Shown: piece after piece, positions 4,447 to 61,774 of the stretch | Layout of the letters: every line of letters starts with the position of its first letter | Position numbering within the stretch: position 1 is the first letter of the stretch | Origin: Linanthus parryae | Lineage: Eukaryota; Streptophyta; Magnoliopsida; Ericales; Polemoniaceae | Length of the DNA stretch: 64,000 nt | Direction: 5' to 3' | Assembly (NCBI GenBank): GCA_023055425.1 | Contig: JALGPY010000003.1 | Span: 64,588,991 to 64,652,990, forward strand | Made by a program: the position numbers and the translations under genes | Notes under the pieces: model-generated | The model's database searches: none | The model's input: the letters and a program-made list of their open reading frames with translations, nothing else | Told to the model about the DNA's origin: nothing

Positions 4447-4811
4447 TGCATATTTTACGCAGGCAGGCTGCGTATTATACGCAGACAGCAAGGTTAGGGG
4501 AGGGTTTTGGCGATTTACGCAGCCTCTTGCGTATTATACGCAACCAGGGGGAGAAAATACGCAGGAAGATGAAGAAACAAGGCACAAGTGGGTCCTTGTC
4601 TGCGTATTTTACGCAGCCTATTGCGTATTATACACAGCCAGGGGGAGAAAATACGCAGGAAGATGAAGAAACAAGGCACAAATGGGTCCCTGTCTGCGTA
4701 TTTTACGCAGGGGCTGCGTATAATACGCAGACAACAGCAACAAGTGGAGAAAACAGCACAGGAGAAGACCCTGGCTGCGTATTTTACGCAGCAGGCTGCG
4801 TATAATACGCA
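4447..4811. repeat. Array of paired palindromes, TGCGTA-N3-TACGCA, in Athila-A U3
   Basis: Ten 15-bp palindromes with arms TGCGTA/TACGCA and a TTT, TTA or TAA centre, arranged as five pairs. They start near 4447/4469, 4508/4528, 4601/4622, 4695/4715 and 4776/4797, so starts within a pair are 20-22 bp apart. Three members are imperfect (4447, 4508, 4622). A block of about 94 bp carrying one pair has been duplicated in tandem: the stretch near 4545-4600 recurs near 4639-4694. The array ends 78 bp before the TATA box. Function is unknown; promoter-proximal binding sites are my inference. Confidence 0.85.
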
Positions 4812-4889
4812 GACAACATAAAAATTGAGGCGGTTTCAGGCAGTGGCTGTTTCGTAAATAAAGGCAAGTTCCAGAAACTTCTCAAGCAC

Positions 4890-4898
4890 TATATAAAG
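4890..4898 (+). promoter_or_regulatory. TATA box of the Athila-A LTR
   Basis: TATATAAAG lies 78 bp downstream of the last palindrome and within the LTR, at the place expected for the U3/R boundary. No transcript evidence is available. Confidence 0.6.
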
Positions 4899-5830
4899 AC
4901 TCGTCCAGACTCGTTTTGAAGACCCAATTCATCCAAGGAGAAGTCTGAGCATCCCCGGAGAGCACGGAAGCACTCATCGAGATCTGAAGACTTAGTTTGA
5001 TCTTATTCTCTTTCTTAATTTCAGAAACTTTGTTAATTGGTTATGTCGTTTAGTAGCTAAACCTTTTACCTAGGTTCTCGGTGAACCTAGGGTTTCGTTT
5101 TCGGACATTGTTCTGCAGTTTGATTATGAATTCATGATTACGTTATCTTAATTCAGCAGTATTATCAGTTATTTTGTCTTTCATTATATATGTTTATGCA
5201 TGATGGGAGTCGCTAACCAGAATTGCTACAGACCAAATCCTGTAGGTGAAAACGTCAGGTTAGGGTTAGGAAGAAAAGACGGGATTTAGTACCTTACCCT
5301 GATAGACCGACCAGAGAAAGGGAGATAGGGCTAGCCAAAACGTATAGACCAACTGTTAGAGAATTTAACCCGGGCCATCAGGACAGGTTAGAAACCCTAG
5401 CAGACTTAGAACGAGACTGCAGACTTAGGGAACTTAACAGGAACCCAAAAGTCTGCAGGATCGTGACAGCGTGTGGAATCTGAAAGGTTACTGCACAATA
5501 GGTACGTGGCACGGGTAATTAAAACTGCTCAGTGTTTTCATATCAAAACTAAGAACATAAATCTGAAGAAACCGTAGGGGATCCTGGGACCTAGTATTCC
5601 AAACCCTAGATTTACAAACTTTCAAGATTTCAGAAAAATGTCACAAAAAGTATTTACGTTTTATTTGTTTATTTTTAGTTTATAGTCAATCACAATCCAA
5701 AACTACTCCTCCTTTTACACTCTGCAAGTTAAAACTGATTTCGCAAAAAACCCAAAATAGTCCTCGTGGGAACGATCACCCGAGTTTAAATACACCCGGT
5801 ATTACAAGATTCGTATACTTGCAAACAACA

Positions 5831-6306
5831 CGTTAGTTTGCGCATCAGCGTACTCCCCTGAAGCTTGCTTTACTATTAGCTTGGAATCTCCCATTACAAC
5901 GAGATTCAGGACTTCCATGGCCTTGGCTGCAAGCAATCATGCGATCAGGGCTTCGTACACAGCCTCATTGTTGGTCACCGCGAAGTCTAGATTTATCGAC
6001 ATTTGAATGACTTATTTATCAGGCTTGATCAGCACCACTCCAATTCCGCCTCCCGACCTTGTCGAGGATCCATCAAAATACAACTTCCAGTAGTGGGTGC
6101 TGATCGCGTATAGCTCGGGCCCCTCGAGTTCCTCTTCTGCTACCGGCTCGCATTTTTCATTGGGGAACTGAGCCAGTAAGTCTGCCAATGCTTGGGATTT
6201 GATGGTTTTTGGTTGCTTGCAAAATATGTCATACTGGGAAATGGTCAAGTACCATTTCGCCAATCTCTCGCAAAGAGGTGAATGTCCCCGCAAGTATCGT
6301 ATAGGA
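5831..6306 (-). pseudogene. Tat-1 RNase H region with archaeal-type RNase H
   Basis: The frame at 6293-6012 carries the end of the pol RNase H connection and then WKLYFDGSSTRSGGGIGVVL, the first catalytic aspartate block of an archaeal-type RNase H. After a stop at about 6012 the same frame continues with NLDFAVTNNEAVYEALIA and VVMGDSKLIVKQ, which supply the other acidic blocks. At least two stops interrupt it, and Athila-A cuts it off at 5831. A second RNase H of this kind identifies the Tat clade. Confidence 0.8.
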
Positions 6307-14313: not shown

Positions 14314-15310
14314 TGACAGCGTAAATCTATCTGCTTTTTCGCAAGTGTACGATCAAGTAATATAGAGTATGTAATTGTGACTCTGATTGTCGAACCCTCG
14401 AGAACAGTTTAAGTTTTGCTTATTAGAATTAGAATTAGACACAAAGTCTGTAAAAAGGAGGAAGGTTGGGATTTGATTCTACTCACTAAATTGCAGTAAA
14501 TAAAACGATATTTAGAAAAGCTTATTTTATTTTTCTTTTAAATACTTTGCAGAAATTGTTGTAGTTGTAAAAATCAATAATTCTAAGAATCTAGGTCCCA
14601 GGATCCCCTAGGGTTAATCTCCAGCTTTCATGGTATATTCGATTTCAGAAACACACGGTGGTTTTGTTTATGCCAGCATACCAACAGTACAATCTCCTCT
14701 CGGTCTCATGCACCTATCACTCTCCTGCAGATTTTCGGGTCCTCTCGGTCCACTTAAATCTGCAGGTTCGTTCTAAGTCTGCTAGGGTTACAGGTTCTCC
14801 TCTCGGTCTCCCCCTAAACGTCTAACAGTTGGTCTAATGCTTCTGGGCTAGTCCCCTGATTCTTTTCACCTCTCGGTCCATCAAGGCAGAGTACTAAATC
14901 CTCACTTTTCTTTCTAACTCTCACTGGTCACTCTCGCGCACCAGATCCTGTCTTTAACACTCCTGGGTGATCAAGCCATTCATGTATGTAAATAAAATCA
15001 AAGACAGAATAATAAACAATCCATCCTGTATTAAGGCTTCAACTAGCCATGCATCTGAAAATCAAACAACCAAGTATGCTGAATTCATAAGCCCTAGGTT
15101 CACCGAGAACCTAGGAAAAAGGTCTAGCTAGCTTGCATTATTGAAAAACAACGTTTCATAAAAGAGAGAAAAGATCAAACTAGTTATTGGCTGAATACTG
15201 AAAAACTGCTCCAATCCTGACGGCTCTGAAACTGGCTGATGTGATGGTGATGATGATGATAGATGTATGAGTGTGTATGTGTAACCCTAATTCAGTGCTG
15301 GGACACCTCC

Positions 15311-15317
15311 TTTTATA
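15311..15317 (-). promoter_or_regulatory. TATA box in the 3' LTR of Athila-B
   Basis: On the minus strand CAGTATAAAAGGAGG lies 84 bp downstream of the nearest palindrome. The same box at the same distance occurs in the other LTR (27395-27401). Confidence 0.65.
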
Positions 15318-15401
15318 CTGCCACAGTCTCCAAAACTGATGCACGAAATTCCTGTTTTACCCTCAAAAAGACCCGTCCTGGAAGCTTCTGGAAACCCTCC
15401 G

Positions 15402-15768
15402 TGCGTTCAAACGCAACTCACCTGCGTTCAAACGCAGTGCGTCTGAACGCACTCATCCTGCGTTTGAACGCAGGCCTTAACCGCTTTTCCTTCCTCTGGC
15501 TTCTGACTTCTCGGACATGTGCGTTTGAACGCAGCTCCCCTGCGTTTGAACGCACAACTTGGTCTTTTCTTCTTCTGATGTCGAGTCCTGCGTTTGAACG
15601 CAGGTTGTGCGTCTGAACGCACCCCTTAGCTTTTCTGCATTTCTGAATTTGAACCCTGCGTTTGAACGCAGGCCGTGCGTCTGAACGCAGGCCTTAGCCT
15701 CTTTTCCGCCATTTTCCCGCTGCTGCCATCTGGTGCGTTTGAACGCAGGTGCCCTGCGTTTAAACGCA
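15402..15768. repeat. Array of 12 paired palindromes, TGCGTT-YR-AACGCA, in the 3' LTR of Athila-B
   Basis: Starts at 15402, 15423, 15438, 15459, 15520, 15541, 15589, 15608, 15657, 15676, 15734 and 15755. Each is a 14-bp inverted repeat with arms TGCGTT/AACGCA and a two-base centre; some first arms read TGCGTC. Except for the closely packed first four, they form pairs 19-21 bp apart with 48-61 bp between pair starts. Spacer sequence differs from pair to pair, so simple recent tandem duplication does not explain it. The array lies in U3, upstream of the TATA box. Confidence 0.9.
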
Positions 15769-16062
15769 CAACTTAGACTTTTCTGCTCTTTTTTCTGCTC
15801 AGCTCTCCTAATACGCTGCCTCCCATCCAAGTCAATCCCATGCATTTCTCGGCACCTGTTACCTGCACATTATAACATGTACCCGCGATCATATCCAACA
15901 AACAAAAGTATGCATGAAATTACTCAAATCTTGCAATCATGTCCTATAAATCTCTGCCTCGTATCAGGTGGAAAATAAGCTGAAAATGGGCAAACTCAAC
16001 TCTCACAGGGTTAAAACCAATGGTAAAAAGATGTCCCAGACTAGTCCATTTTCAAGCTGTCA

Positions 16063-17409: not shown

Positions 17410-19095
17410 CTACTGATCTGGCCTGTAACTAGAATCTGTGTTCTCCGGAGTAGACTGGTCAGTCGGCTCTGGAGATGGTGAAGGGGTTCGCCCTCTGGCG
17501 CATTTCCTCGCAGCATGGCATGCTGCGGCAGCGGTACCAGCATGGCTGGCACCGGGATGGGCACTGCTGGCCCCTGGTTCTGCATGCTGCCTAGGTGGGT
17601 ACTGAGTACCGGGTCTGCCGGGGTCACCAACGCTGTCAGCGTGTTCCGGACTCGGTGTGGGGTCATGGCCAGAGAAGCTGTCATACGGACGACTATCCTC
17701 CATTGTCCAGCTGGGACAATTATCACTCGAATAGCGGTCCGGGAAATTAAATCTCTTACCACGCATGTTGCTCTGAATTTCAGCGAGTGTCGCCTCATGA
17801 GCTCTCAATGCGGCTGTGTTAGCGTGGTAAATATGCTTCTGGGTCTTGAACAATTTGCCAAGACCCCTGGCCATTTTCTTGACCGTCCTTACCAGGTAGT
17901 TCTGTACTTTTTCTTGGGCCTTAATTTTCTTTCTGACCCATTCCTCATGCTCAGTCCTCTCCAGGCGCCCAAAAGAACTGCGCCTGGCCCCTCTGCTGGA
18001 CTGCCCTAAGTCGGGGTCGGCCTGCCTGTGTTCACTGGAACTGGCAGATCGTGGCAGTCGGAGGGGACCTGGTAAGGCTGGAAAACCCCCATCACCGGGA
18101 GGAGGTGGTGGTGGCATGCCAACACCCCCACCCTGAGGTGGAGCATCATCATCATCATCATCCACTTGGACAAATTCTGGAGGCCCGTGCACGGCCTCAT
18201 GCAATGCACATCTCATGTTTCGGTACTTGCGTACCTGCACTGGTCGGATATCTCTCAGCTCGCCAGGGATAACCACCCGATAATCCTGCGCCATTTTTGT
18301 TAACATCCCCAGGAGACCCAAACCCTTCTTGCTGTGGGTCTCTCTTCGTTCCCGGAAAAACTCACAAATAATCTCCGGGAGGCTCACAGGCTCTCGGGCC
18401 ATCAGACAGTACACCAAAAGGGCAATGTTATAATCAATGCGGGTAAAGTGTTTAATACCCACAATTTTGTTGTTTACCCACTCAGTCCACCATCTCGCCT
18501 CTCGAATCAGGTAGGTCGCATGGAGTTTCCGGTAGGAAGGACTTCGTTCAGGATAGTACCAAGCAGCGCCTGGTACACCAGCACACATGGTGGTCAAGAT
18601 CTGCTCGCTAAGCTGTTCAGATGGATGACGCCTCAGTTCCTGAAACTGACAGTCATCCAACACTAATTCTAGACCCAGACTCTCTCGGATACTCTCTGGG
18701 GTGATTCGAATCCATCTTTTTCTGCAGTAAATCCAGTCAATTGACTGGGCTTCACTGTTCATGCACTGCTGGAGATTGCTGAAAATCTCCTTAGCCAGCA
18801 CAGAACTGACTTGCAGATTGGTGAAACCAGTAAACAAATCCCCAAAATGATCCTGCCCAGTATAGTTGAACAGTTCATCCCCCATTGCTACTCTATCACG
18901 GGGAAAGGTCCTCTCAGCAGGTATGTCATACCGAATCTTTTTGTCTTGCAGAAAGAAACGGTGAGCCTCCATGTTAACAAACCTATGGTCGCATAAATGG
19001 TCAACCCTAAGCAATCTGCAGTCTATGATGTTCAAAGGTGCAATCGCCCTATCAGGCCTCATGTAAGGGCTATCCTCATCCATTTCAAGATTCAA
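17410..19095 (-). CDS. Athila third ORF (env-like, ATHILA ORF-1 type), intact
   Basis: 561 codons without a stop, located between integrase and the 3' LTR, as in Athila elements. Residues about 60-290 form the conserved part: FTGFTNLQVSSVLAKE, WIRITPESIRESLGLE, REARWWTEWVNNKIVGIKHF, then LLVYCLMAREPVSLPEIICE. After about residue 315 come an Asp run, Gly/Pro-rich repeats, a basic helix-prone stretch (EEWVRKKIKAQEKVQNYL) and a Ser/Pro-rich tail. I find no N-terminal signal peptide and no hydrophobic membrane segment, so the env-like label describes position only. The Tyr-Cys-Leu-Met block also occurs in the SIRE third ORFs of this window. The ATG lies about 294 bp after a TATA box at 19389. Function is unknown. 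Confidence 0.85.
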   Translation of the reverse strand: MNLEMDEDSPYMRPDRAIAPLNIIDCRLLRVDHLCDHRFVNMEAHRFFLQDKKIRYDIPAERTFPRDRVAMGDELFNYTGQDHFGDLFTGFTNLQVSSVLAKEIFSNLQQCMNSEAQSIDWIYCRKRWIRITPESIRESLGLELVLDDCQFQELRRHPSEQLSEQILTTMCAGVPGAAWYYPERSPSYRKLHATYLIREARWWTEWVNNKIVGIKHFTRIDYNIALLVYCLMAREPVSLPEIICEFFRERRETHSKKGLGLLGMLTKMAQDYRVVIPGELRDIRPVQVRKYRNMRCALHEAVHGPPEFVQVDDDDDDAPPQGGGVGMPPPPPPGDGGFPALPGPLRLPRSASSSEHRQADPDLGQSSRGARRSSFGRLERTEHEEWVRKKIKAQEKVQNYLVRTVKKMARGLGKLFKTQKHIYHANTAALRAHEATLAEIQSNMRGKRFNFPDRYSSDNCPSWTMEDSRPYDSFSGHDPTPSPEHADSVGDPGRPGTQYPPRQHAEPGASSAHPGASHAGTAAAACHAARKCARGRTPSPSPEPTDQSTPENTDSSYRPDQ

Positions 19096-19388
19096 ACAGA
19101 AAAAATGAAAATATTCAAAGAGAAGGAAAAGATAGAACCTGGCTACCCGGAGTGAATCTTACGGGTATAGATCTGGAAATTGCTCTCTGAAGTGGATCTG
19201 TCGGTGTTTGGATCGGATGAGTTTGACCACCCCCACACTGTTCCTGACCTTCTGGTGGTCCTGCGGTGGTCGTCGGAGATTCCTGGCGGCTGACTGCTTC
19301 TGGCGGCTGCTAGGGCAGAGAGAATTTATAGAGAGAGAGTTGAAAACTGGATGACTTGGGTGAAAATGAGTCACTGTCATCCGTACAG

Positions 19389-19396
19389 TATATATA
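19389..19396 (-). promoter_or_regulatory. Candidate internal promoter (TATA box) for the Athila-B third ORF
   Basis: TATATATA on the minus strand (context GCCTATATATACTGT) lies 83 bp downstream of the pol-ORF3 palindrome array and about 294 bp upstream of the ORF start. The spacing from array to TATA box equals that in the LTRs (84 bp), which is the reason for calling it a promoter. No transcript data are available. Confidence 0.55.
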
Positions 19397-19479
19397 GGCA
19401 AATTTTCAGAAATTGCAGAATGGCCCCTGAATTTCAAATTTTTTCAAATTTTTCCGAAATTTCTGATCCCGCTCGAATG

Positions 19480-20049
19480 TGCGTTTAAACGCAGCTTCTG
19501 CGTTTGAACGCACGTCTTCAACTTTTCAGGAAATTTGAAATTCTCTTGATCTGCGTTTGAACGCATGGTGTGCGTTTGGACGCAGTGCTTGAAGTTCTAT
19601 GAATTTTCTGGGCTTTGTTGATTTGCGTTTGAACGCACATGAGTTGCGTTTAAACGCAATGCTTAGCTTCTGCAATGCTTCTGATGAGCTGCGTTTGAAC
19701 GCACATGATCCGCGTTTAAACGCATGCCTTGACTCTAGAAATTCTCTGCTGATTGGCTTTTGCGTTCGAACGCACCCTCTGCGTTTAGACGCACGTCCTT
19801 AGGCTTTTTCCAACCCATCTTTTTCTTCTTGCGTTTGAACGTATCTTGTGCGTTTGAACGCACCACTAGTTGGCTGGAAATCTTCATTGTGTGATCTGCG
19901 TTTGAACGCACGGGTATGCGTTTGAACGCATAAGTGTTAGCCATTTCCAGTGTTTCTTCTGTCTGTTGGTGGGTCTGCGTTTGAACGCAAGGTGTCTGCG
20001 TTTGAACGCACATCTGCGTTTGAACGCATGTCTCCTGCGTTTGAACGCA
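19480..20049. repeat. Array of 18 paired palindromes upstream of the Athila-B third ORF
   Basis: Same motif as in the LTRs. Starts at 19480/19499, 19552/19571, 19624/19645, 19690/19711, 19761/19780, 19830/19849, 19897/19917 and 19976/19997/20015/20036. Spacing within pairs is 18-21 bp; pair-to-pair spacing is 45-59 bp. Some members are perfect 14-bp palindromes (TGCGTTTAAACGCA). A few have single changes (19571 TTGG, 19711 CGCG, 19780 TTAG, 19830 CGTA). The spacers are unrelated in sequence. The array fills most of the gap between integrase and the third ORF. Confidence 0.9.
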
Positions 20050-20222: not shown

Positions 20223-23200
20223 TCACGGAAGGTCGAGGTAGAGTGACTCTACCTCCATGATCTCCTGAGGATCTCTGTATGGCTTGACTCTGTTCCCATT
20301 CACCTTGAAAACTGTATTATCCCTCGGGTTCTCCAGCTCCACCACTCCCCATGATGTAATGTCCTTCACAATAAATGGTCCATACCATCTTGAGCGCAGC
20401 TTCCCTGGATAGAATTTCATCCTTGAGTTGTAGAGGAGAACCTTCTGCCCGATTTCTATCTTCTTTGGTAGAATGCGGTTGTCATGCCACTTCTTTGTTT
20501 TTTCTTTATAAATTTTGGCACTCTCATAAGCAGTTCTACGGAATTCTTCTAGTTCGAGGAGTGCCATCTTCCGTTTGTTTCCCGACAAACTGTGATCCAT
20601 ATTTAGCTGCTTGATTGCCCAGTATTGTGTTCCAATTCTACTGGTAAGTGACATGCTTTTCCAAACACCAACTGTTAAGGGGACATTCCCAGTGGGGTTT
20701 TATAAGCAGTTCTGTATGCCCAGAGCGCATCATCCAGCTTTAGCGACCAGTCCTTACGTCCAGGATTCACAGTTTTTTCCAGTATGCTCTTTATCTCCCT
20801 GTTGGACACCTCTGCTTGCCCGTTTGCCTGAGGGTGATAGGGCAGTGATACCTTATGGATAGACACCCCGTACTGCTTTAAAACTTTGGCAAAGACCTTA
20901 TTGATAAAATGAGAACCTTCATCACTGACCATGGCCCTCGGTGTTCCGAATCTGGTAAAGATATTACATTTGAGGAATCTTTCCACGACTGCCGCATCGT
21001 TCTTCTGACAGGCTATTGCTTCCACCCACGTAATCTACTGCCAGTAAGATGTAGAGATTTCCCAGAGACGAAGGGAACGGACCTTTAAAATCGATACCCC
21101 AAACATCAAAAGGCTCGACTTCCTGCCAAAGTGTCATGGGCATTTCATTCCGCTGGGAAATATTTCCTGTCCGTTGGCAGCGATCGCAACTCTGCGCATA
21201 ATCATGGCAATCCTTGAAGACTGTTGGCCAGAAAAATCCTGACTGCAGCACTTTGTGGGCTGTTCTCGGTCCGCTGAAGTGTCCCCCACATTGTGCTGAG
21301 TGGCAGTGCTGAATTACCTCCAAAATCTCGTGACATAGAATGCAGCGACGGAGAATATTGTCTGCCCCTTGCTTGAACAGATAAGGATTGTCCCAGAAAT
21401 ATTGTCTGCAATCTGAAATAAACTTCTTTTTCTGCCAAGGGGTGATGTCTTCAGGGAGTGCCCCATTAACCAAATAATTGGCTATGGCGTAATACCAGGG
21501 CCGTCTGTTGGTCTTGATCTTCATAATATGTTCATCCGAAAAAAATTCTTGAATGGGCACCAGTTCTTCTGTAGGGTTTTCCAGACGAGATAGATGATCA
21601 GCTACCACATTTTCAACTCCCTTTTTATCCCTGATTTCGACGTCAAATTCCTGCATCAGCAGAATCCAACGCAGCAGCCTTGGCTTTGCATCCTTCTTCT
21701 CCAGTAAGTATTTCAGCGCACTGTGATCTGTGAATATGATGACTTTTGAACCTACCAGGTAGGACCTGAACTTATCCAGGCCAAACACGACTGCCAGCAG
21801 CTCCTTCTCTGTAGTCCCATAATTAATCTGTGCCTCATTCAGGACCCTGCTGGCATAGTAGATGACACTGCACACTTTGTGGGCTGTTCTCGGTCCGCTG
21901 AAGTGTCCCCCACATTGTGCTGAGTGGCAGTGCTGAATTACCTCCAAAATCTCGTGACATGGAATGCAGCGACGGAGAATATTGTCTGCCCCTTGCTTGA
22001 ACAGATAAGGATTGTCCCAGAAATATTGTCTGCAATCTGAAATAAACTTCTTTTTCTGCCAAGGGGTGATGTCTTCAGGGAGTGCCCCATTAACCAAATA
22101 ATTGGCTATGGCGTAATACCAGGGCCGTCTGTTGGTCTTGATCTTCATAATATGTTCATCCGAAAAATTTTCTTGAATGGGCACCAGTTCTTCTGTAGGG
22201 TTTTCCAGACGAGATAGATGATCAGCTACCACATTTTCAACTCCCTTTTTATCCCTGATTTCGACGTCAAATTCCTGCATCAGCAGAATCCAACGCAGCA
22301 GCCTTGGCTTTGCATCCTTCTTCTCCAGTAAGTATTTTAGCGCACTGTGATCTGTGAATATGATGACTTTTGAACCTACCAGGTAGGACCTGAACTTATC
22401 CAGGCCAAACACGACTGCCAGCAGCTCCTTCTCTGTAGTCCCATAATTAATATGTGCCTCATTCAGGACCCTGCTGGCATAGTAGATGACACTGCACACT
22501 TTGTCCTTTCGTTGTCCCAGTACCGCGCCCACTGCGTAATCACTGGCGTCGCACATCAGCTCGAACGGGAGGGTCCAGTCTGGCGTTGTGATAATGGGTG
22601 CAGTTGTCAGCCTCTCTTTAAGCACGTCAAAGGCTTCTTTGCAGGCTTCATCAAATACGAATGGCACATCTTTTCCCAACAGATTACATAGTGGCTTTGT
22701 AATTTTTGAGAAATCTTTAATAAACCTTCTGTAAAATCCTGCGTGGCCCAAAAAACTCTTAATTGCCTTCACTGTGGTTGGATACGGCAGCTGCTTGATC
22801 ACCTCTATTTTTGCCCTGTCTACTTCCAGTCCTTTGCTGGAAATCCTGTGTCCCAGCACTATTCCTTCAGTAACCATGAAGTGGCATTTTTCCCAGTTGA
22901 GTACCAGGTTTGTTTTTCTGCAGCGAATCAGAACTCTGGCTAGATGGTATAAGAAGTCTTCGAAGCTGTCTCCAAACAACGAAAAATCGTCCATGAAAAC
23001 TTCCAAATTTTTCTCTATCATATCAGAGAAAATAGCCATCATGCATCTTTGGAATGTTGCTGGAGCATTGCACAATCCAAATGGCATTCGTCTAAAGGCG
23101 AACGTTCCATATTGGCAGGTGAACGTCGTCTTTTCTTAATCCTCTGGATTTATATAGATCTGGTTGTAGCCAGAATACCCGTCAAGAAAGCAGTAATAAG

Positions 23201-23333
23201 CATGGTGAGTTAGTCTGTCCAACATCTGATCCATGAATGGCAGCGGGAAGTGGTCTTTCAGTGTGGCCTCGTTCAGCTTCCGATAGTCCATACAGATTCG
23301 CCAGCCAGTGACAGTGCGCTGGGCGATCTGCTC
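20223..23333 (-). pseudogene. Athila-B pol: reverse transcriptase, RNase H, integrase
   Basis: The main frame is 23087-20964 (707 codons). It starts inside RT with [16 protein letters not shown], then [13 protein letters not shown] (YxDD box as FMDD), RNase H blocks [27 protein letters not shown] and [10 protein letters not shown], and the integrase zinc site [17 protein letters not shown]...[11 protein letters not shown] motifs upstream (GWRICMDYRKLN, FLDGYSGYNQI) are in the same frame but cut off by a TAA at 23136-23138. A loss of about 7-8 bases near 21030 shifts the frame within integrase; the core continues at 21025-20675 ([36 protein letters not shown]), has a TAA at 20675-20677, and after a further small deletion ends at 20654-20223. 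A 624-bp segment is duplicated in frame. The protein would be inactive. Confidence 0.85.
21249..22496 (-). repeat. 624-bp in-frame tandem duplication in Athila-B pol
   Basis: Copy 1 is 21249-21872 and copy 2 is 21873-22496. Both boundaries fall at CACTTTGT, an 8-bp microhomology that recurs at 22497. The unit is 208 codons and covers the end of RNase H and the integrase zinc site, so both appear twice in the frame without a shift. I see about six differences by eye (for example CATAGAATG against CATGGAATG), about 99% identity. Confidence 0.9.
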
Positions 23334-27394: not shown

Positions 27395-27401
27395 TTTTAT
27401 A
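27395..27401 (-). promoter_or_regulatory. TATA box in the 5' LTR of Athila-B
   Basis: On the minus strand CAGTATAAAAGGAGG; the gap to the nearest palindrome at 27486 is 84 bp. This copy would drive the genomic transcript. Confidence 0.65.
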
Positions 27402-27485
27402 CTGCCACAGTCTCCAAAACTGATGCACGAAATTCCTGTTTTACCCTAAAAAAGACCCGTCCTGGAAGCTTCTGGAAACCCTCCG

Positions 27486-27852
27486 TGCGTTCAAACGCAA
27501 CTCACCTGCGTTCAAACGCAGTGCGTCTGAATGCACTCATCCTGCGTTTGAACGCAGGCCTTAGCCGCTTTTCCTCCCTCTGGCTTCTGACTTCTCGGAC
27601 ATGTGCGTTTGAACGCAGCTCCCCTGCGTTTGAACGCACAACTTGGTCTTTTCTTCTTCTGATGTCGAGTCCTGCGTTTGAACACAGGTTGTGCGTCTGA
27701 ACGCACCCCTTAGCTTTTCTGCATTTCTGAATTTGAACCCTGCGTTTGGACGCAGGCCGTGCGTCTGAACGCAGGCCTTAGCCTCTTTTCCGCCATTTTC
27801 CCGCTGCTGCCATCTGGTGCGTTTGAACGCAGGTGCCCTGCGTTTAAACGCA
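27486..27852. repeat. Array of 12 paired palindromes in the 5' LTR of Athila-B
   Basis: Same twelve sites as in the 3' LTR. Three are altered relative to it: GAATGCA at about 27522, GAACACA at about 27673 and GGACGCA at about 27741. The first two are changes at CG dinucleotides, as expected from deamination of methylated cytosine. Confidence 0.9.
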
Positions 27853-33966: not shown

Positions 33967-34120
33967 GTCTTCGCATGAAGACAAAGGAGTCTTTGCACGA
34001 AGACATCTCACGGGAAGGCCAAAGCGCGAAGATCTTCGTGGAAGAGCTTGCTGTCTCAATGTGCGAAGAGTGTTCGCACGAAGAGGCAGAAGTCTTCGCA
34101 CAAAGTACTTCGCAAGAACA
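33967..34120. repeat. Palindrome array with arms CTTCG/CGAAG
   Basis: Clear members are GTCTTCGCATGAAGAC (33967), GTCTTTGCACGAAGAC (33989), CGAAGATCTTCG (34027), GTGCGAAGAGTGTTCGCAC (34061), GTTCGCACGAAGAG (34072) and GTCTTCGCACAAAG (34092), with a weaker one near 34105. The first two start 22 bp apart. A TATAAA lies about 65 bp downstream, so the layout resembles the arrays in the Athila LTRs with another sequence. No element is identified. Confidence 0.65.
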
Positions 34121-38343: not shown

Positions 38344-38344
38344 A

Positions 38345-43876: not shown

Positions 43877-43889
43877 GGCTCTGATACCA
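43877..43889 (-). other. Primer binding site of Angela-2
   Basis: TGGTATCAGAGCC on the minus strand, 1 nt after the LTR; complementary to the 3' end of initiator tRNA-Met. Confidence 0.9.
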
Positions 43890-43890
43890 C

Positions 43891-45327
43891 TGTTGGGTTT
43901 TGATGTAGGTAACGCAGCGGAATAACAAAAATTAATCCTACTCAAAGCCCACCAAGGATCACAGGAAGAGACATCATAACATGATTAAGGACATAGAAGA
44001 TGTGTACCTTTTGATTTGTGAGATCACACGAAGAATGATGTCCTCGTCTCTACGGTTGATCCACGTCTAGAGGTGAGATCTAGATTCTTCCTTCAATCAA
44101 GTGCTAGCTTGAACCTTGGAGGAAGAGGGATGAAGATCAAAGCAACCAAGCAACAAGGCAACAAAGGAGGGGCGGCCTCCCTTCTTGCCGTCGGGTAGGG
44201 GGGCGGACGGGGCTAGGGTTTCGGCCCTAGCTCTTGTCTTGCTCTCTCTTTTGCTCTCTCCCACTCTTTGTGTGTTATGATTAATAACTCATCTTGTGGG
44301 AAGGAAGCTAGAGCCTCCTTTATATACTCCAACAACTCCTTGTTGTTTCCATAAAAGAGTTTTCTTGTTCTAGTAGGACTAGAACTATTCCCTTCCTTGC
44401 AAATTAGTCCTACTAAGTTTGCAAGGTGTTGCACAATGATCCTTCTATTAATTAATCCATATTAATTAATCCCAAATCTAGCTCTACTCTATTTGACGTG
44501 TGACCCCATAGGTTTCTATATAGTTGGTAGTAACTATTACTAACATGGAGCGGTGTCTAGCAACACATCCATGCAACCCAACCAATAGAAATAGTCAGTG
44601 ATCCCGACAAACCTTTGTGCCCAATATGTCATATTGCATTATCCCTTTGTCTCCATATCCGGATTGGACACGAGACATAAATAGTCACACTCGTATATCC
44701 AATCCATAGTTCCTCGATCCTGGGAATACGCTTATGCTTGCAGATAACATTAATATCTCCATATTAATTTATCTGAGTCTGGCCAGACATTCAATAAGCC
44801 TCATCCCTCGAGTGGCCGTGGATATTTACTCCCATTATGTGGGAGGGACAAATCCTATCTACATCACTACGATCTCTAAGCTTGCTTCCTATCACGCCCG
44901 ATAGCCACCTTTATGATTACCCAGTTACGGTGTAACGTTTGATAACATCAAAGCGCAATATTTCACAACTAGAGTATCTAGTGACTTCAAGTCTAAGGAT
45001 TGCAATAATATTAGCACTACGAAAAGCGATTGTGACTTCACATAATCTAATGTATCCTTTTCGTCGTGGGTCAATCCAGTATGCCATTACTCCTAATGCA
45101 TACCCATGTGTTAGACTTGATATCTCCATATCAATCTACCCACATACTAGTCTATATTTGATTGTCCTATTAATCAATATAATTGACTAGGGATATTTAA
45201 GATAAATAACACAATTTATCTAAGGACTTCATTATATTAAATATCGCCATAAATAATAAATGAATATTCTAGCCAAAACATTGTTCATACTAAATCTACG
45301 ATTGCCTCTAGGGCATCTATTCCAACA
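43891..45327 (-). repeat. 5' LTR of Angela-2
   Basis: 1437 bp, same ends and apparently the same sequence as the LTR at 36894-38330. The TSD copy GGAAG follows at 45328. Confidence 0.95.
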
Positions 45328-45455
45328 GGAAGGCAGCTCGACATGAACACAATACCAAGTACGGGTGACAGTGAGATGGTGGAAAGAAGTGGGGTCGAAG
45401 GAGAAGAACAACCAACTGATGAGGCGGTGGCTGCAGTGCAGCACCGCCATTCACA

Positions 45456-51049: not shown

Positions 51050-52181
51050 TAAAACAGGATCAATACTTTAGAAGGGGGGGGGGTTGAATAGAGTATGGCA
51101 AATTTTTGCAATTTATGCTAGAAGAGTAATTTCAAAGAAATTTGTGCACAACTGCAATTATTTCAAGGCCTTCAAATGAGTTCCAAGTCCTTGGAAAGAA
51201 AACAGATGACAAATAAAAAGCTGAGAGTTTTCAAGGCCTTGATATGCCTTTCAAACCCTTGAACTGAAACATGTTTTGTGCAGTTAATTTGACTAAGTAA
51301 TGAATAGCAAAATGAATGCAAGAGACACATAGATTTATATAGTTCAGTCCACTTGGAACTACGTCTTACTAATCAAAAGCTAACCCCTAGATCTCAAGCA
51401 CAGAGAGTTCCCTTACTCTGTACATGCTTGTGGTTCTCACTAACCTATCTAGTACCGGCTCTAGCTAACTGATTCAACAAGAATTATCTATTGTTCACTT
51501 GAACAATTCACGTAAACAAGAATGTAACAAGTATTATATGAATGATATACAAATAGAGTTCAGAAAGAAGATCACTGAGACAGAGTGTAACAGTGTGTAT
51601 GCAGTGTCCTTCATATGCTAGGATTGAGAGGAATGAATCTGATTATTTGTTGCTTGTCAATCCCTGAATGTGTTTGAGTGTGTCCTTGTTGATTCTCGTT
51701 CTGATCTTCATGTCCAACACCATCTTAAGGAGCTGGTTTGAATTGGAGATCTTCAAGATATTCTGGCAAAAAACTTTCCTATAAATCAGCAAAGTATCTT
51801 TGACTCTTCTAACTCTTCTTCTAACGGCTAGTTAATCAGTATTGGGCTTGATATTGGACTTGATCTTGTAGTAGAGTATATTACGAAGGTCCAGAAACAC
51901 TTGCATAGTCACAGAATCAATCAAACAATTCAGTTTCAATAGGTAATTGATTCTTCTTGCAAAAACTTGTTCAAACAGATGGATTAATGAGAGTTAAGAG
52001 AATCAAAATATTTGTGTTTCATCATCAAGGTGCATATAATCAACTATAGAGATGAGGGAATCATATTAATCAAATAGGCTCCCTCCTAGTTCATGTTGTA
52101 TACTACTCACTCTTTTTCAAACCTTTGAAAACAGTTTCAAGGCCTTGAAACAAACAAGTCTTTAACTAGCTGACCTTACAA
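51028..52181 (-). repeat. 3' LTR of SIRE-1
   Basis: 1154 bp. Minus-strand start TGTAAGGTCAGC, end GTCTTTCA. It holds a G run at 51074-51083 and palindromes of the TTTCAAGGCCTTGAAA type centred near 51168, 51188, 51236, 51256, 52122 and 52143, in pairs 20-21 bp apart. Compared with the other LTR it lacks about 40 bp near 51365. Confidence 0.85.
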
Positions 52182-52640: not shown

Positions 52641-54254
52641 CTATTCTCCTTCTTGAGAATCTGTATCACTAGTGTCACCAACAACCTCATCATCAAAGAG
52701 TTCAACTGTAGTCACTATCTCTGGAATGATTTTATTCAGTTTCTTCTTCTTAAGTTCTTTGATGAACATCCCTGAGTCTGAACTTTCAGCATTATCTTGT
52801 TCCTGATCTTCATCACCCTGCTCTTGAGCTACTTGTTTCCCTTTGTCCACCACCCCTACAGCCTCATCATGTGTTGTATGGTCATTGAACAAGTCCTTGG
52901 TTGAACCAGTTTCTTGGATCCCTCTGCATCCAGAGAGACTTCTTCCTTTACATGAAGCACATTGATGCTTTTGAAGATGCTTCAACCATATACCTGACTT
53001 GCTTGAACTCAGTCCAAACTCATGCTGATTTTCCTTCAATTCTTCCATATCCTTCTCCAGAAAATCAAGTCTCATTGCAAGGTATTGAGATTGAGTGTGT
53101 AGGTTTGAAGGAGGGGTCAATGCCTTGGGTATAGTAATCTTTTGGATTGTAACTCTTCCTTAGACAGTTCAGGGTACAGTTTCTAGTTACCTTCACTAGT
53201 TATCATAACCCCATTTCTCTCCAGTGCTTTTTCTTCAAGCACCAAACCCAATAGTAACATTATCTTCTCTTTCATTTGGGAACTCAAGGTGTTTAAAGAA
53301 GGAATAAAGGAGGTTGGCATATGGTAACGGATGATTTCTTTCTTTGGTCTGAGAAAAAAGTATGTGTCCGATCACAATTTGAGGAACATCAATCTCATAA
53401 CCACGCATGATCAAATACATCAAGTACAACACCCTGTCTGTAATCAATTATTCGGAGTTATCCTTAGGTACTACACATGTCATAAGAATAGTAAACAATA
53501 CTTTTGCTTCAACAGTTTGCACAAAGTGTGTTAACTATTTGGAGGAGGTAGACACATTTGATAAAAAGAACTCTTCCCTAGCCAATTTCAGTGCTTCAAT
53601 CTTGTTAGGGTAGTTTTCTTTGTTATACCTCTCCGGAAAACCAAAAACATTTTCAAATTCAGAGTGATCTAACTCCATATCAACACCAGCCACTTTGGTT
53701 TGGATCACTAGGCTTACAGTTTTAACTTGCTTCATATTCAGATAGAAAAACCTAGTGAGTCTGAGATATGCAACTTCTGGAGGGTTTAGGGTTTTCCAAA
53801 TAGCACTCTTCTTCAAAATCTTAATGGATTCCATATTCATGGATTTCAGCATATTGACACTAATCATGCTACAAAAAGCTACTGGTATGGAAGCAAAGCC
53901 ATCTAACAATTGTCCTCTAGCAACATTAGATACAAACCACTTGTTGTTAATGCCGGATTTCTTACCAGGGGAATGTGGCTTTTATGAGTAGATCTCCAAT
54001 TCTTTTCGAGTGCCTTTTTCTGGTTCTTCCTCAATAACCTTCCGTTCGCCTTTGTCTTCCTTTGTTGGCTTCTTCTTCTTTACCTTTTTAGGACTAGAAA
54101 CATGTTCATCTGGTTGCTTTTCTGGAGCTGACTTATAACTTGAGTCATCACTGAGTGTTTGAACTTCTTCCTCTACACTCTTCCTCTTCTTGTCATCAAC
54201 ATTCTTTGATACTCCAGCCATCTTGATTCTGTCAGACGTTCTTCTGGTGATCAT
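52641..54254 (-). pseudogene. SIRE-1 third ORF (env-like), broken
   Basis: One frame of about 538 codons with stops at 53982, 53535, about 53449 and 53235 and a short region in another frame near 53130-53230. The N-terminus is Lys/Glu-rich (VKKKKPTKEDKGERKVIEEE). The middle part is the conserved domain: LTRFFYLNMKQ, VAGVDMELDHSEFENVFGFP, then YLMYLIMRGYEIDVPQIVIGH. The C-terminus has a heptad-rich stretch (YLAMRLDFLEKDMEELKENQ) and acidic and Lys-rich tails. No signal peptide or membrane segment is visible. Its central Tyr-x2-Met motif matches the Athila third ORF. A TATA box lies about 298 bp upstream of the ATG. Confidence 0.75.
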
Positions 54255-54551: not shown

Positions 54552-54679
54552 TATATAGACTTGATTTCAAGGCTTTGGAAAGGATTTCAAGGCCTTGAAA
54601 AGCTATACTACTGAAACAAATAACGTCAAGGCTTTGAAAAGATTTTCAAGACTTTGAAAATCAATTCAAAACTTTGAAA
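54552..54679 (-). promoter_or_regulatory. TATA box and 20-bp-phased palindromes upstream of the SIRE-1 third ORF
   Basis: Palindromes of the TTTCAAGGCCTTGAAA type are centred at 54572.5, 54592.5, 54631.5, 54651.5 and 54671.5: steps of 20, 39, 20 and 20 bp. On the minus strand CTATATACTGG (54552-54557) follows the last of them after about 7 bp. The ORF ATG is about 298 bp further on. This is a candidate internal promoter; there are no transcript data. Confidence 0.5.
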
Positions 54680-56258: not shown

Positions 56259-57420
56259 AAGGGACGCAAAAGCATTAAAGGCACACAGATTCTTTAACTC
56301 TGATATTGTTTGTGTACCAGTGGATGAATCAGATATAATTTTATCAGCTGGATGAGATGAGAGATATTTGAATCTTTTCCTTGGTTTCCATGATTCTGGT
56401 TCTTTAGGAATATTCTCAGGTGTTTGAGAACTTGAAGTAGTGGCTTGTCCACTATGATACTCTTGTTATTCTTTTTCAAGGCTTTGAGGCTCATTCAAGG
56501 CCTTGAAAAATCTTCTTGTTTTCCTGCAAGATTTCTTTAAAACCATTTGAAGGCTCTGCTTCATATTATGACTCATGCTTGTTCAAATCTAATTCTGCTA
56601 AACTTTCACTCAAAGAACCATCATAGCTTTCATCAAAAATAACATGAATACTTTCTTCAACAAGCTTGGTTCTATTGTTATAGATTCTATAAGGTTTGCT
56701 AGTCAGTAAATAACCAAGAAAAATACATTCATCACTCCTGGAAACAAACTTACCAAGATTTTCCTTACCATTCTTATGGACATAACAAGTGCAACCAAAT
56801 AGTCTGAAGTAAGAGATGTTTGGCTTTCTTCCTTGAAAAGTTCATAAGGAGTCGTATTTATTATAGGTGTGATCAAGCACTTGTTAAGTATATAGTTGGC
56901 AGTATTCACAGCTTCTGCACAGAATAATTTTGACAATTTGTTCTCCACAAGCATTGTTCTTGGCATGTATTCAAGAGTCCAGTTCTTTTTTTAAACAACA
57001 CCATTCTGTTGAGGAGTTCTAGGTGCAGAAAAGTTGTGAGAGATTCTATGCTTATCACAAAATAAATAAAACTCAAGTTGATCAAATTCTCTACCATGAT
57101 CACTTCTAATATAACAAATAGGCAGGTTTTTTATAGATTGAAGTTCTTACAAAGCTTTGGAATTCAGAAAGACCTTCAAATTTATTTCTAAGAAACATTA
57201 CCCAACTAAATCTAGAAAAATCATCAACAATAACTAACTTGTACTTCTTACCCTTTTGGAGTTGGAGTTCTCATTGGACCACATAGACCCATATGCAATA
57301 GTTCAATGGTTCTAGTAGTACTTACAAATTTATTTGGCTTGAATGAGCTTCTTATCTATTTACCTTGAGAACATGTTTTTTATACTTCTTCATATTTGGA
57401 CTTGATAGGGGGCAGACCTC
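56259..57420 (-). pseudogene. SIRE-1 integrase and linker
   Basis: Seen in several frames. HMGLCGPMRTP stands where the first catalytic Asp should be (D to G), IRSDHGREFDQLEF has the second Asp, and RTPQQNGVV is followed by a stop in place of the catalytic Glu. MPRTMLVENKLSKLFCAEAVNTANYILNKC continues the core C-terminus. The linker near 56470-56510 contains two palindromes 19 bp apart inside the coding frame. Confidence 0.7.
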
Positions 57421-58310: not shown

Positions 58311-59767
58311 AGTCCTATGTTCCTCCAATTTATCAAATGATGTTTTAGAGCAACAACATTGTAACTCAAAATAGAGTTCTCAGTGACTACTTCCTTGACT
58401 TGAGTTTTCAAGGCTTTGAAACTGGTTTCCAAGGCCTTGAAATATCTATCAGGCTTCTTCTGAGAACTTTCGAGATTTTGATTTTGATAAAAAAGTTGCA
58501 AGTTTTCTTTTGATTTCTCATGAACCTGTTCTTTCAAAGCCCTGATTTATTTCCTATAGTACTCTTCATTTAAAATCATTGTTCTAAGATAGTCAGAGAG
58601 AACATCTGTTGGTTTTGAAATCAAACAAATTACCATTACCTTATTGTTCTTTTCAGAACTGTCATCATGCAGCCATAAGGAAAAGTTGTATTGTTCCTCT
58701 TCAGATTCATAATCGCTTGAGGAATCTAAGTCACTGCAAGATGCTATCATAGCTCTTTCCTCCTGTCATGGTCTTTCTTTTGAAATTGTTTTCTTTTCTT
58801 GTGTGGACAATCTCTGATCAAATGTCCTGTATCACCACACTCAAAGCATTCATTACTTTAGATTTATTAACACGGAAGAAGATTTACCTTTGTAGTCTTT
58901 GCTACTGGATGATTTGTGTTTATCCCTGCTGAGGTCTTTTTTTCCAAAGTTATTTTTCATCTTTAGAATTTTGGTCAAGGCTTTGGAAATGAGAGCAAAT
59001 GGATCTTCATCATCATCATCATCTTCTTCTTTTTCAAGGCTTTAATATGGTACAGTTTCTTTAGCCTTGAGAGCTAGATTCTTGACATTATCTGGTAGTC
59101 CTCCATCAACTTCATTCATGGAGATTTCATGAGTGAGCAGTTTTCCCTACAAGTCATCTAGTTGAAGTGATGATAGATCTTGATATTCTTCAATGACAGT
59201 AGTATTTCGTTCCCATTTGGCTTTGGAAGACTTCTCAAGATCTTCCTGACTTTTCTTCATTGGAAAAAGATTTTCACAAGGAGTCCATATTGTTTACAAT
59301 GTCAGTGAACCTCTTAAACATGTCCTTGAATGAATCATCTCCATTCATCTTAAATAGTTCGTACAGTCTAAGAAAATTGTTGATATTTGTCTGATTTACT
59401 TGACTGGTTCCTTCAACGGTTACCACCAATTTGTCCCATATCTCTTTAACAGTCTTGCAGCCTGAAATCCTGTTAAATTCATCTGCACTCAAAGCACAAT
59501 ATAAAAGATTCATAGCTCTGTAATTTTAGAATATTGTTCTAACTCAGAAGCAGAAAGTGAATCCTCTGTCTTGGGATTTCTGATCCCATCTTTCGTTGTG
59601 TAAAAAGTGTGAGGACCATTCTGAATGATAGTCCACAATTCAATATCTTGATCAATGATGAACATTTTCATCAGGGCTTCCCAGTGCACAAATTTTTCAC
59701 CACAAAATAGAGGAGGTCTGTAAGCAGCTTGTCCCTGAGAGAAACCACCATCACCTATAGTACTCAT
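58304..59767 (-). pseudogene. SIRE-1 gag
   Basis: Starts MSTIGDGGFSQGQAAYRPPLF at 59767; the ATG is chosen over one 48 bases upstream because the upstream residues include the primer binding site. FVHWEALMKMFIIDQDIELW and, after a frameshift near 59510, CALSADEFNRISGCKTVKEIWDKL and FLRLYELFKMNGDDSFKDMF are gag core. The zinc knuckle CFECGDTGHLIRDC is at 58848-58807. Near 58450-58390 the frame contains FKALETSFKALK, encoded by two palindromes 21 bp apart. Confidence 0.75.
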
Positions 59768-59802
59768 AATCACTAGATGGTTAAATTTATACAGTGATAC
59801 CA

Positions 59803-59814
59803 GCTCTGATACCA
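59803..59814 (-). other. Primer binding site of SIRE-1
   Basis: TGGTATCAGAGC on the minus strand, 2 nt after the LTR end GTCTTTCA. Confidence 0.85.
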
Positions 59815-59816
59815 AT

Positions 59817-60469
59817 TGAAAGACTGTAATATAGGTGCTAAAACAGGATCAATACTCTAGAAGGGGGGGGGGGGGGGTTGAATAGAGTATGGTAACTTTT
59901 TGCAGTTTATGCTAGAGGAGTGATTTCAAAGAAATTTGTGCACAAATGTAAGTATTTCAAAGCCTTGAAATGAGTTTTAAGTCATTGGAAAGAAAACAAA
60001 TGACAAATAAAAAGCCGAGAGTTTTCAAGTCCTTGAAATGCCTTTCACCCATGAACTGAAACCTGTTTTGTGCAGTTAATTTGACTAAGTAATGAACAAC
60101 AAAATGAATGCAAGAGAAACAGAGATTTATAGAGTTCAGTCCACTTGGACCCACGTCTCTACCTCATGCATTTTATCCCTGCAGGATTTTCAACTCAAAT
60201 CTTATTAATCAAAAGCTAAGCACTAGATCTCAAGCACAGAGAGTTCCCTTACTCTGTTAAAGCTTGTGGTTCTCACAAACCTATCTAGTACCTACTCTAG
60301 CTAACTAATTCAAAAATAATTCTCTGTTGTTCACTTGAAAAATTACGAGAACAAGAACTTAAGAAGTGTTATCTGAATAATATACAAATAGAGTTCAGAA
60401 AGAAGAACACTGAGACAGAGTGTAGAAGTGTGTATGCAGTGTCCTTTAGATGCTAGGATTGAGAGGAAT
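59817..60469 (-). repeat. 5' LTR of SIRE-1, left part
   Basis: Colinear with 51028-51645 of the 3' LTR, with a 15-base G run at 59863-59877 against 10 in the other copy. It is interrupted after GAGAGGAAT, where SIRE-2 begins; in the 3' LTR the same sequence continues without a break. Confidence 0.85.
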
Positions 60470-61774
60470 TGAAAGTGTGAGTATGAATATGTTAATGCAG
60501 CTAAGATACTGTAGAGGGGGGGGGGGTTGTTGAATAGAGTATGCCAATTTTTTCCAAAACTTGCTAAGAAGATGAAAATTTGTGCAAACCGTGAAGTTCA
60601 AGGCCTTGAAAACTAGTTCAATCCTTGAAGAAGATGCAGGCAGTATAAAGCAAGTATGCCTTTTCAAGGCCTTGAAAACAAGTTCAAACCCTTGAAAAAT
60701 AGACAGTTTTGTGTGCTGCAAAAACTAAGAAAATGAATGAACTGTAAATACAGAAGACAAGTGATTTATAGAGTTCAGTCCACTTGGACCTACGTACTAC
60801 CTCAGGGATTAGATCCCTGCAGGATTTTCAACTCAATTCTTATTAATCAAAAGCTAAGCCCTATAACTCAAGCCCAGAGAGTTCCCTTACTCTGTTACAG
60901 CTTGTGGTTTTCCCTAACCTGTCTAGTACCTGCTCTAGCTAACTGATTAACTAAGAATTCTCTATTGTTCACTTTGAAAAATCCTTGAGAATAGATGTAG
61001 AGATAATACAGAAATGATCTACGAATACAGCTCAATACAGAAGTACACTTAGAGTAGAAAAACTGCAGTGAAAATGCAGTGAACTTCTGTGGAATGGATT
61101 GAGAGTTTGATGTTCTTCTTTGGTGCTTTGTCAATCCTGAAACTTGTCTCTTGTTTTTTCCCGTTGAGTCTCGTGTATTGTGTCTCCAAAGTAAGCTCTA
61201 TTTAAACTATTTGAAGCTCTGCAAATCTTCCCAGATTTTCAGCAACAACTTCCTATTTTGTAGGGAACAGCTTTGACTCTCCTTAACAGCTTTCTCCAAC
61301 GGATAGTTGAGCACAATGTACAGAGATATTGTTGTGATCTCTTCCAAAAGCAATCTGAGAAGCTGTCATAAGTATCTGATTGATCACAGGATCAAAATAT
61401 TCATCTATTTCCAAAATCTGCACAACTTTAGTTTAGGAAACAATCCTGCAAATATTGGAAACAAAATTTCCTGCCTTATCATGGTCAAACAGATGATTTC
61501 TTATGCTCAAAACATGTTAGAACAATTTTTCTTTCATCATCCTATAACAGTGAATCAAACATATGGAAGAAAGAGAGTGAATCAACTCAGAGAGTTTGCA
61601 GAAAACTCCCCCTAAGAGTGTGCATACAGGTTAAGCAGTTTCAAGGCTTTGAATTCATTTTCAAGGCCTTGAAAATAGCTTTCAAGCCTCTGAGACTGAT
61701 TCAAGGCTTTGTAAGCTGGTTCAAGGCCTTGAAATAGCTGAGCTATTCCAAGTCTTGCACAAGCTGATCTTTCA
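60470..61774 (-). repeat. 3' LTR of SIRE-2
   Basis: 1305 bp, minus-strand start TGAAAGATCAGC and end CACACTTTCA. G run of 11 at 60516-60526. Palindromes are centred near 60603, 60623, 60669 and 60689 (pairs 20 bp apart), plus the ladder at 61640-61735. Confidence 0.85.
61638..61735. repeat. Ladder of five palindromes at 20-bp steps in SIRE-2 U3
   Basis: Variants of TTTCAAGGCCTTGAAA are centred at about 61646.5, 61666.5, 61687, 61706.5 and 61726.5. The two best members are TTTTCAAGGCCTTGAAAA and TTCAAGGCCTTGAA. They lie within 130 bp of the LTR start. Confidence 0.85.

Follow-up and report, generated by a model that had tools for sequence, protein, structure and literature searches.

Palindrome arrays in the window

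The window, a stretch of 64,000 nucleotides from Linanthus parryae (contig JALGPY010000003.1, positions 64,588,991 to 64,652,990), contains long terminal repeat (LTR) retrotransposons of several families that carry arrays of short palindromes arranged in pairs. The names Athila-A, SIRE and Tat are those of an earlier annotation made by a model from the letters alone (the sequence-only reading). Domain matches place Athila-B in Ty3/gypsy (RVT_1, RT_RNaseH) and SIRE in Ty1/copia (RVT_2).

Athila-B lies on the minus strand and carries two arrays, in the order LTR array, TATA box, gag, pol, internal array, TATA box, extra open reading frame (ORF), LTR. Its 3' LTR-like repeat (14314..16062) is 97.7% identical to that at 26389-28146. 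Within the former, 12 palindromes of the TGCGTTnnAACGCA type occupy 15402..15768 in pairs at 19 or 21 bp (start distances 21, 58, 19, 49, 19, 48, 21, 61, 21, 15 and 21), and a TATA-like box, TATAAAAG (15310..15317), follows 84 bp past the array; the array of the other LTR is at 27486..27852. The coding part (20964..26027) comprises a gag-protease ORF (23334-26027) and a pol ORF (20964-23135). Between pol and the extra ORF stands the internal array (19480..20049), 18 palindromes forming nine pairs at 19-21 bp, with a TATA-like box (19389..19397) 83-85 bp past it. The extra ORF (17410..19158; 582 amino acids from stop to stop) matches PF20167 with an E-value of 5.7e-15 and 56 bits. The pol ORF also holds a direct duplication of ~625-639 bp (99%) at 21242-22504, as a result of which a single open frame contains two RNase H-type matches.

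Athila-A lies on the plus strand. Its array in the LTR (U3, the unique 3' region) spans 4447..4811 and consists of ten palindromes of the TGCGTA(T)nnTACGCA type in five pairs at 20-22 bp, with start distances of 22, 38, 21, 73, 21, 73, 20, 61 and 21; one palindrome has five mismatches. A TATA-like box (4890..4897) follows 77-79 bp past the array, and a piece of extra ORF (1131..1817) gives a weak PF20167 match (E-value 0.0003, 21 bits, under the curated cut-off of 45).

The SIRE arrays are all on the minus strand. An LTR-like array at 51161..51264 has two pairs at 20 bp and lies 3' of a TATA-like box, CTATATAAATC (51332-51342), and a 20-bp pair at 52115..52150 stands directly after a polypurine-tract-like GGGGGAGATTG. 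The internal array past pol (54565..54679) has groups of three and two palindromes at 20 bp, with TATATA 7 bp beyond, and the extra ORF (53235..53981) is broken into two pieces with weak PF20167 matches (E-values 3e-05 and 0.0017, under the cut-off). SIRE-type pairs occur at 56474..56508 (19 bp; upstream of an RVT_2 ORF piece) and 58406..58442 (21 bp). Two further LTR-like arrays each hold one 20-bp pair and one site further away, by 48 bp at 59955..60038 and by 66 bp at 60596..60697, and an array at 61639..61734 has five sites at 20, 19, 21 and 20 bp. Spacing in the SIRE arrays is mostly 20 bp (19-21); several SIRE palindromes are isolated or degenerate (e.g. 57503, 52524). An unassigned stretch on the plus strand (33967..34118) carries CTTCGnnnnGAAG palindromes in two pairs at 22 bp, with TATAAA ~66 bp beyond.

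A scan for repeated-dyad arrays that assumed no motif, in 500-bp windows with a 250-bp step and with a hit defined as a dyad occurring three or more times, was positive in 21 of 254 windows and in none of 300 shuffles made in 2-base blocks, which rules out chance palindromes as the origin of the arrays. Every positive window coincides with palindromes of Athila-A, Athila-B or SIRE or with the stretch at 33.97-34.11 kb, and the arrays are where the sequence-only reading had reported them. The Tat pair at 10695/10718, put forward there as a weaker example, falls below the scan threshold. No positive window was obtained from the Ty1-copia LTR pair (36.9/43.9 kb), the LINE-like stretch or the Tat stretches.

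Spacing of paired palindromes

Start distances within pairs are 20-22 bp in Athila-A, 19 or 21 bp in Athila-B, mostly 20 bp (19-21) in SIRE and 22 bp in the 34-kb stretch. For Athila-B the range of 19-21 bp given earlier is correct, but the values are 19 or 21 and hardly ever 20. The number of neighbours at 19-22 bp was compared with random non-overlapping placement over the same span. It is in excess in Athila-A (P=0.0008), the Athila-B LTR (P=0.0011) and the Athila-B internal array (P=0.0002); the three SIRE clusters with at least four sites gave P=0.039, 0.033 and 0.058, five smaller SIRE clusters lying outside the test.

Motif pairs with gaps of 1-30 bases were counted genome-wide with the reversed pattern as control. 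Paired TGCGTTNNAACGCA (Athila-B motif) occurs at 11,334 places against 2 for the reversed pattern and paired TGCGTANNNTACGCA (Athila-A motif) at 3,140 against 0, these places being family copies rather than independent events. Among the 50 Athila-B matches listed, all from contig C1 and counted by hand, 41 are at 19 or 21 bp, seven at 36-42 bp, one at 18 and one at 15; in two of the 36-42-bp cases, printed in full, an imperfect palindrome sits between the sites. A hand count of the 50 Athila-A matches listed, likewise all from C1, gave 48 at 20-22 bp, one at 28 and one at 42. A hand count over 12 SIRE-type loci put 27 of the 31 distances between neighbours less than 30 bp apart at 19-22 bp, with 23, 23, 23 and 26 for the rest. 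Pairs at 19-22 bp thus recur in other copies across the genome, as expected, and the palindromes themselves differ between Athila-A, Athila-B and SIRE.

A further family, Athila-C, fails both the spacing plan and the match between LTR and internal motifs. Its internal arrays (L067, L070-L072) have GCCAGATACGCTGGC units at 21-22 bp, and its LTRs (L080, L081) carry TAGCTACGCAGC units every 12 bp. The same two LTRs also hold ~22-24-bp repeats with GGCACGyWTCCCGAG-like words upstream of a TATA box. One more stretch (L082) had no array above shuffles. Together with the copia, LINE-like and Tat stretches of the window, where no array reached the scan threshold, these cases rule out a plan common to all LTR elements; what survives of the common plan claimed by the sequence-only reading is the agreement in spacing across the families that do carry paired arrays.

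A second array before the extra ORF

An internal array with the motif of the LTR precedes the extra ORF in Athila-A, Athila-B and the window SIRE, a feature that the sequence-only reading did not include. Twenty Athila-B stretches were fetched from 40 places scored of 1759 candidates. All 20 have the LTR array and 14 have the internal array; in the other six, truncation or a fetched stretch that reaches beyond the element may account for its lack. TATAWA lies 83-84 bp after the LTR array in 20/20 copies; of the 14 stretches with an internal array, 13 have it 79-88 bp beyond that array. Shuffles of the LTR and internal stretches contain TATAWA in 5-10% and 9-33% of cases, respectively. A short-word BLAST comparison of the two array-to-TATA stretches of the window's Athila-B found no similarity between them.

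Because of the two-array layout of Athila-B, an internal array was sought in Athila-A, and it was found just left of the window (L079). Its 12 palindromes are of the TGCGTATTTTACGCA type, as in the Athila-A LTR, and form six pairs at 22, 21, 21, 21, 21 and 20 bp. Among the matches listed, the Athila-A motif also forms pair groups ~12 kb apart with a cluster between them (e.g. C1:4011721-4024249), an arrangement read as a putative LTR - internal - LTR order.

PF20167 matches occur in both SIRE and Athila element types (150 matches scored of 13,206 candidates). In 17 of 20 hand-picked loci the 0.9 kb upstream of PF20167 contains a repeated-dyad array whose score exceeds that of each of ten shuffles; in another (L069) an array is visible when searched with the SIRE motif, and two (L066, L068) have no array in this 0.9 kb. 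On the 3' side of the extra ORF in SIRE-side stretches, L085 has two 20-bp pairs, L083 one and L084 none. A splice-donor-like CAGGTAAG was observed immediately downstream of SIRE pol, ahead of the internal array (54700-54600 minus; L059-L065, L069, L075), and an acceptor-like TTTGTTTCAG word lies inside the array region in an alignment of several loci. A spliced extra-ORF transcript is on this pattern a possible alternative to an internal promoter in SIRE. The sharing of this ORF by two superfamilies (SIRE-type, Athila-type) deserves a study of its own.

Constraint on palindromes relative to spacers

Diversity was compared across 22 LTR and 15 internal sequences of Athila-B. Palindrome arms are less diverse than all spacers taken together, at 0.018 against 0.084 in the LTR and 0.027 against 0.090 in the internal array (0/20,000 site permutations in support of chance). 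Split by class, within-pair spacers reach 0.102 and between-pair spacers 0.079 in the LTR, and 0.147 and 0.077 in the internal array. Arms are hence 3-5 times less diverse than spacers, which indicates that the palindromes are constrained. The outer flanks, promoter sequence included, have diversities of 0.039 and 0.034, so part of the contrast between arms and spacers is due to fast spacers. At CpG positions the LTR arms have a diversity of 0.028 (n=48) against 0.198 in between-pair spacers (n=14), the internal values being 0.025 and 0.156 (n=6); selection or low methylation would fit the low CpG diversity of the LTR arms. The within-pair spacers are the most variable class of sequence in Athila-B and nevertheless keep their length, being off the majority length in only 2/154 and 4/150 rows (kept in 298/304). 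In the SIRE internal arrays palindromes are again less diverse (0.108) than spacers (0.237) or flanks (0.205), as measured in the 9 of 11 sequences with at least four sites.

Other features of the window

A Ty1/copia-type element with an RVT_2 ORF (38345-42313) is bounded by LTR-like repeats at 36894-38331 and 43891-45328. Given the 100% identity of these repeats over 1438 bp, the element at 36894-45328 is probably a very young insertion. An inverted relative, 77-81% identical, is present at 28441-33352. At 35330-35455 there is a perfect loopless 63-bp inverted repeat (126 bp) with ends TTGGGGCTAGCCCC, which looks like a small foldback element, a hairpin locus or an assembly artefact.

Discussion

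We favour, with moderate confidence, a reading of the arrays as putative operator arrays for a dimeric DNA-binding protein that serve two promoters. On this view the arrays would be operator modules, similar to enhancers, that are recognised as duplex DNA, and every palindrome (14-16 bp) is a putative site for one protein dimer. The basic unit would be the site pair, with centres separated by about two helical turns, an arrangement in which two dimers could sit on roughly the same side and bind together. Such units multiply through tandem duplication. With the sequence-only reading we infer binding of a dimeric protein on one face. In Athila, one module stands upstream of the LTR TATA box and a second module of the same motif between pol and the PF20167 ORF, so that a single regulator could govern the extra ORF as well as the genomic transcript. 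As binder, a transcription factor of the host would be the simplest candidate. The Athila-A half-site resembles NAC-type sites (TTGCGTA). In favour of the operator reading are the arrays above chance, the spacing in copies across the genome, arms less diverse than spacers in Athila-B and palindromes less diverse than spacers in the SIRE internal arrays, the kept length of the variable within-pair spacers, the mainly one-sided arm changes, the regular TATA distance in Athila-B, the Athila-A internal array that was sought and found, and the arrays ahead of PF20167 in 17/20 loci.

Several observations weigh against this operator reading. Athila-B pairs at 19 and 21 bp and hardly at 20 are unlike the prediction from helical phasing alone, and the Athila-C LTR units recur at 12 bp. 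Indels are rare everywhere, which makes the kept spacer length weak evidence, and within families spacing is partly inherited through unit duplication. TATA boxes are irregular outside Athila-B: within 140 bp there is none after the Athila-A internal array, none after the Athila-C internal arrays (2/2) and no TATAWA after any of the five window SIRE LTR-like arrays (5/5), while among fetched SIRE loci TATAWA follows the internal array in 2/11 compared with 30-62% in shuffles. At 51161-51264, SIRE LTR sites stand 3' of their TATA-like box. Given this irregularity in SIRE, Athila-A and Athila-C, the internal-promoter step of the model rests on Athila-B.

The alternative that survives best, though we consider it unlikely, is that the spacing records history only. 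One pair would have arisen per family and been copied by unequal exchange, the distance of 19-22 bp would have no function, and single palindromes would be ordinary factor sites. The arrays do grow by the copying of larger pair units, with 94-bp units at 95% identity in Athila-A and 68-bp units at 80% in Athila-B, and an (A)GCTAAGG-like word recurs in the last 14 bases before Athila-B pairs. Over these bases the 11 between-pair spacers of Athila-B have a mean identity of 0.416 against 0.283 when shuffled (0/3000 shuffles), and a weak likeness extends to the within-pair spacers (5-mers 0.413 vs 0.312, P=0.044; 7-mers 0.347 vs 0.277, P=0.014). The statement that spacers are not conserved was therefore too strong, although it is correct that they drift faster than the palindromes. 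From copy to copy in Athila-B, pairs of the 19-bp and of the 21-bp class keep their places, and the 12-bp period of the Athila-C LTR also suits a historical origin. Tandem duplication with conserved spacers, which the sequence-only reading had itself named as the competing explanation, thus holds in part within families. As a full explanation it leaves unexplained the similar spacing of 14-, 15- and 16-bp palindromes that cannot be aligned with one another, in Athila-A, Athila-B, SIRE and the 34-kb stretch. History alone also sits poorly with diverged SIRE loci that remain at 20-23 bp and with within-pair spacers that change fastest yet keep their length. Since spacing inside a family is for the most part inherited, the case for a plan comes solely from the likeness across families. 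An ACGCA/TGCGT half-site is common to Athila-A, Athila-B and Athila-C, and because of it the arrays of these three may have a single origin.

A second alternative, which we regard as quite unlikely, makes the regulator element-encoded. The product of the extra ORF would bind the palindromes of its own family in the LTR and in its own promoter and lift silencing or activate transcription in the manner of VANC, which provides a precedent (PMC12844716, in its accessible part). The co-occurrence of array and ORF in SIRE-type and Athila elements (the 17/20 loci upstream of PF20167, plus L069) is consistent with this, as is a motif that differs by family and yet is the same in LTR and internal array of Athila-A, Athila-B and the window SIRE. 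Position beside the ORF fits an ordinary promoter equally well, however, and the protein itself offers little encouragement. Pfam searches of 19 extra-ORF sequences returned only PF20167 above noise and no recognised DNA-binding domain, a PDB sequence search gave two matches (E-values 0.65 and 0.97) taken as noise, and the AlphaFold model was unusable (mean predicted local distance difference test score 49.7). SIRE-type extra ORFs are ~44% identical to one another and still have one motif in common, and the accessible part of PMC2829016 describes env-less Sireviruses that keep LTR palindromes. A possible connection between PF20167 and plant mobile domain proteins was set aside, there being no Pfam match and no bearing in the accessible literature on the MAIN/MAIL1 'DOWN' motif.

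A bolder form of this idea would have SIRE (Ty1/copia) and Athila (Ty3/gypsy) run the same two-promoter autoregulatory circuit, with the homologous PF20167 ORF encoding a dimeric, sequence-specific regulator of family-specific palindrome pairs, spaced by two helical turns, in the LTR and in its own promoter. The PF20167 ORFs of the two types are 14-21% identical. We regard this version as decidedly improbable.

Finally, the transcribed palindromes might fold as RNA hairpins that act in processing or packaging or feed small-RNA silencing, as has been proposed for maize Sireviruses. The Athila-B LTR array folds better than 100/100 shuffles (z -10), and two neighbouring palindromes can form a ~14-bp stem with a short loop, one pair reaching -17.2 kcal/mol; RNA was in this respect dismissed too fast by the sequence-only reading. 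For a single SIRE palindrome the fold is no more stable than that of shuffles (z -0.46). Two counts made on related copies of ~15 pair positions support the preference for duplex DNA. Of the changes in Athila-B arms, 58 affect one side only and a single one is matched by a complementary change on the other, and pairs with both centres asymmetric (TCAA or TTGA) have them in the same orientation in 146/146 cases, which places a mismatch in any hairpin between two paired palindromes and breaks the stem. The accessible text of a 2023 maize paper reports small RNAs and a Sirevirus palindrome in structured regions (PMC10760457), and silencing may use RNA structure without having shaped it. The uncompensated arm changes and uniform orientation disfavour selection for RNA pairing despite the strong folds, and we consider a hairpin origin very improbable.

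If the operator reading is right, two unrelated plant retrotransposon groups share, or have converged on, paired dimer sites at a fixed spacing serving two promoters. It would then be testable how the extra ORF of Athila and SIRE comes to be expressed and what activates these abundant elements. Since the motifs are short and fixed and occur thousands of times in this one genome, the binder could be identified from data on DNA binding, methylation and transcript starts.

Comparison with known systems

Literature searches, with mainly open-access coverage, found no account of the Athila arrays, the pair spacing, the constraint relative to spacers or the match between LTR and internal motifs, and the accessible parts of PMC2829016, PMC10760457, PMC6911290, PMC11963269 and PMC12844716 contain no description of Athila arrays or pair spacing. 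In viral contigs, a search for relatives gave one match, a 22-bp tandem repeat without sign of an LTR element (L106); two other patterns and one pol query gave none.

Symmetric transcription-factor sites occur in U3 of tobacco Tnt1, a plant LTR retrotransposon of another lineage, and no second array ahead of an extra ORF is known to us in that element. Maize Sirevirus LTR palindromes have reportedly been connected with small RNAs by Bousios et al. in 2016. Box I of the Tnt1 U3 is named as symmetric in the accessible text of PMC2829016.

A close published counterpart is that of Bousios et al. (2010), who described palindromic repeated motif (RM) boxes that precede TATA in the LTRs of Sireviruses and recur in the linker ahead of env, with high identity between copies and a suspected regulatory role (PMC2829016, as far as accessible). 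The window SIRE agrees in carrying palindromic repeated TTTCAAGGCCTTGAAA-like sites in LTR-like stretches and, both here and in fetched loci, arrays between pol and the PF20167 ORF, the putative counterpart of the published env. The SIRE arrays are the same plan as the published boxes, which lowers their novelty; the assertion in the sequence-only reading that no description was known accordingly does not hold for Sireviruses; for Athila and for pair spacing the present searches likewise found none. Differences are also apparent. A CGG-CCG core is present in 12/13 published motifs and absent from TTTCAAGGCCTTGAAA, as it is from the published Tnd-1 motif (PMC2829016, accessible part). The position of the SIRE LTR sites relative to TATA gives a mixed picture, some lying near the LTR start (52115-52150) and others 3' of a TATA-like box (51161-51264). 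The accessible text confines RM boxes to Ty1/copia Sireviruses and calls them absent from classic retrotransposons (PMC2829016), whereas Athila-B, with RVT_1, RT_RNaseH and Retrotrans_gag and no RVT_2, is not Ty1/copia. The present arrays thus extend to Ty3/gypsy Athila, with other motifs, paired sites and site diversity measured against spacers; pair spacing does not appear in the accessible text of that paper. Maize Sireviruses likewise have palindrome clusters in the LTR cis-region, with a different motif, CACCGGAC...GTCCGGTG, and an accessible literature that stresses RNA structure and silencing (PMC10760457).

VANC/VANDAL offers a parallel from DNA transposons, in which an element-encoded protein has been shown to bind its motif (PMC12844716, accessible part). 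Common to both systems are arrays of short motifs in non-coding parts of the element that differ by family; they differ in that binding is established for VANC, while here a PF20167 ORF is present and its binding role is putative. A VANC-type system also entails loss of DNA methylation upon binding; the low CpG diversity of the LTR arms noted above would fit selection as well as low methylation. Were the autoregulatory circuit real, it would give retrotransposons an equivalent of VANC or of the transactivators of retroviruses, and its operator and protein would change in step from one family to the next.

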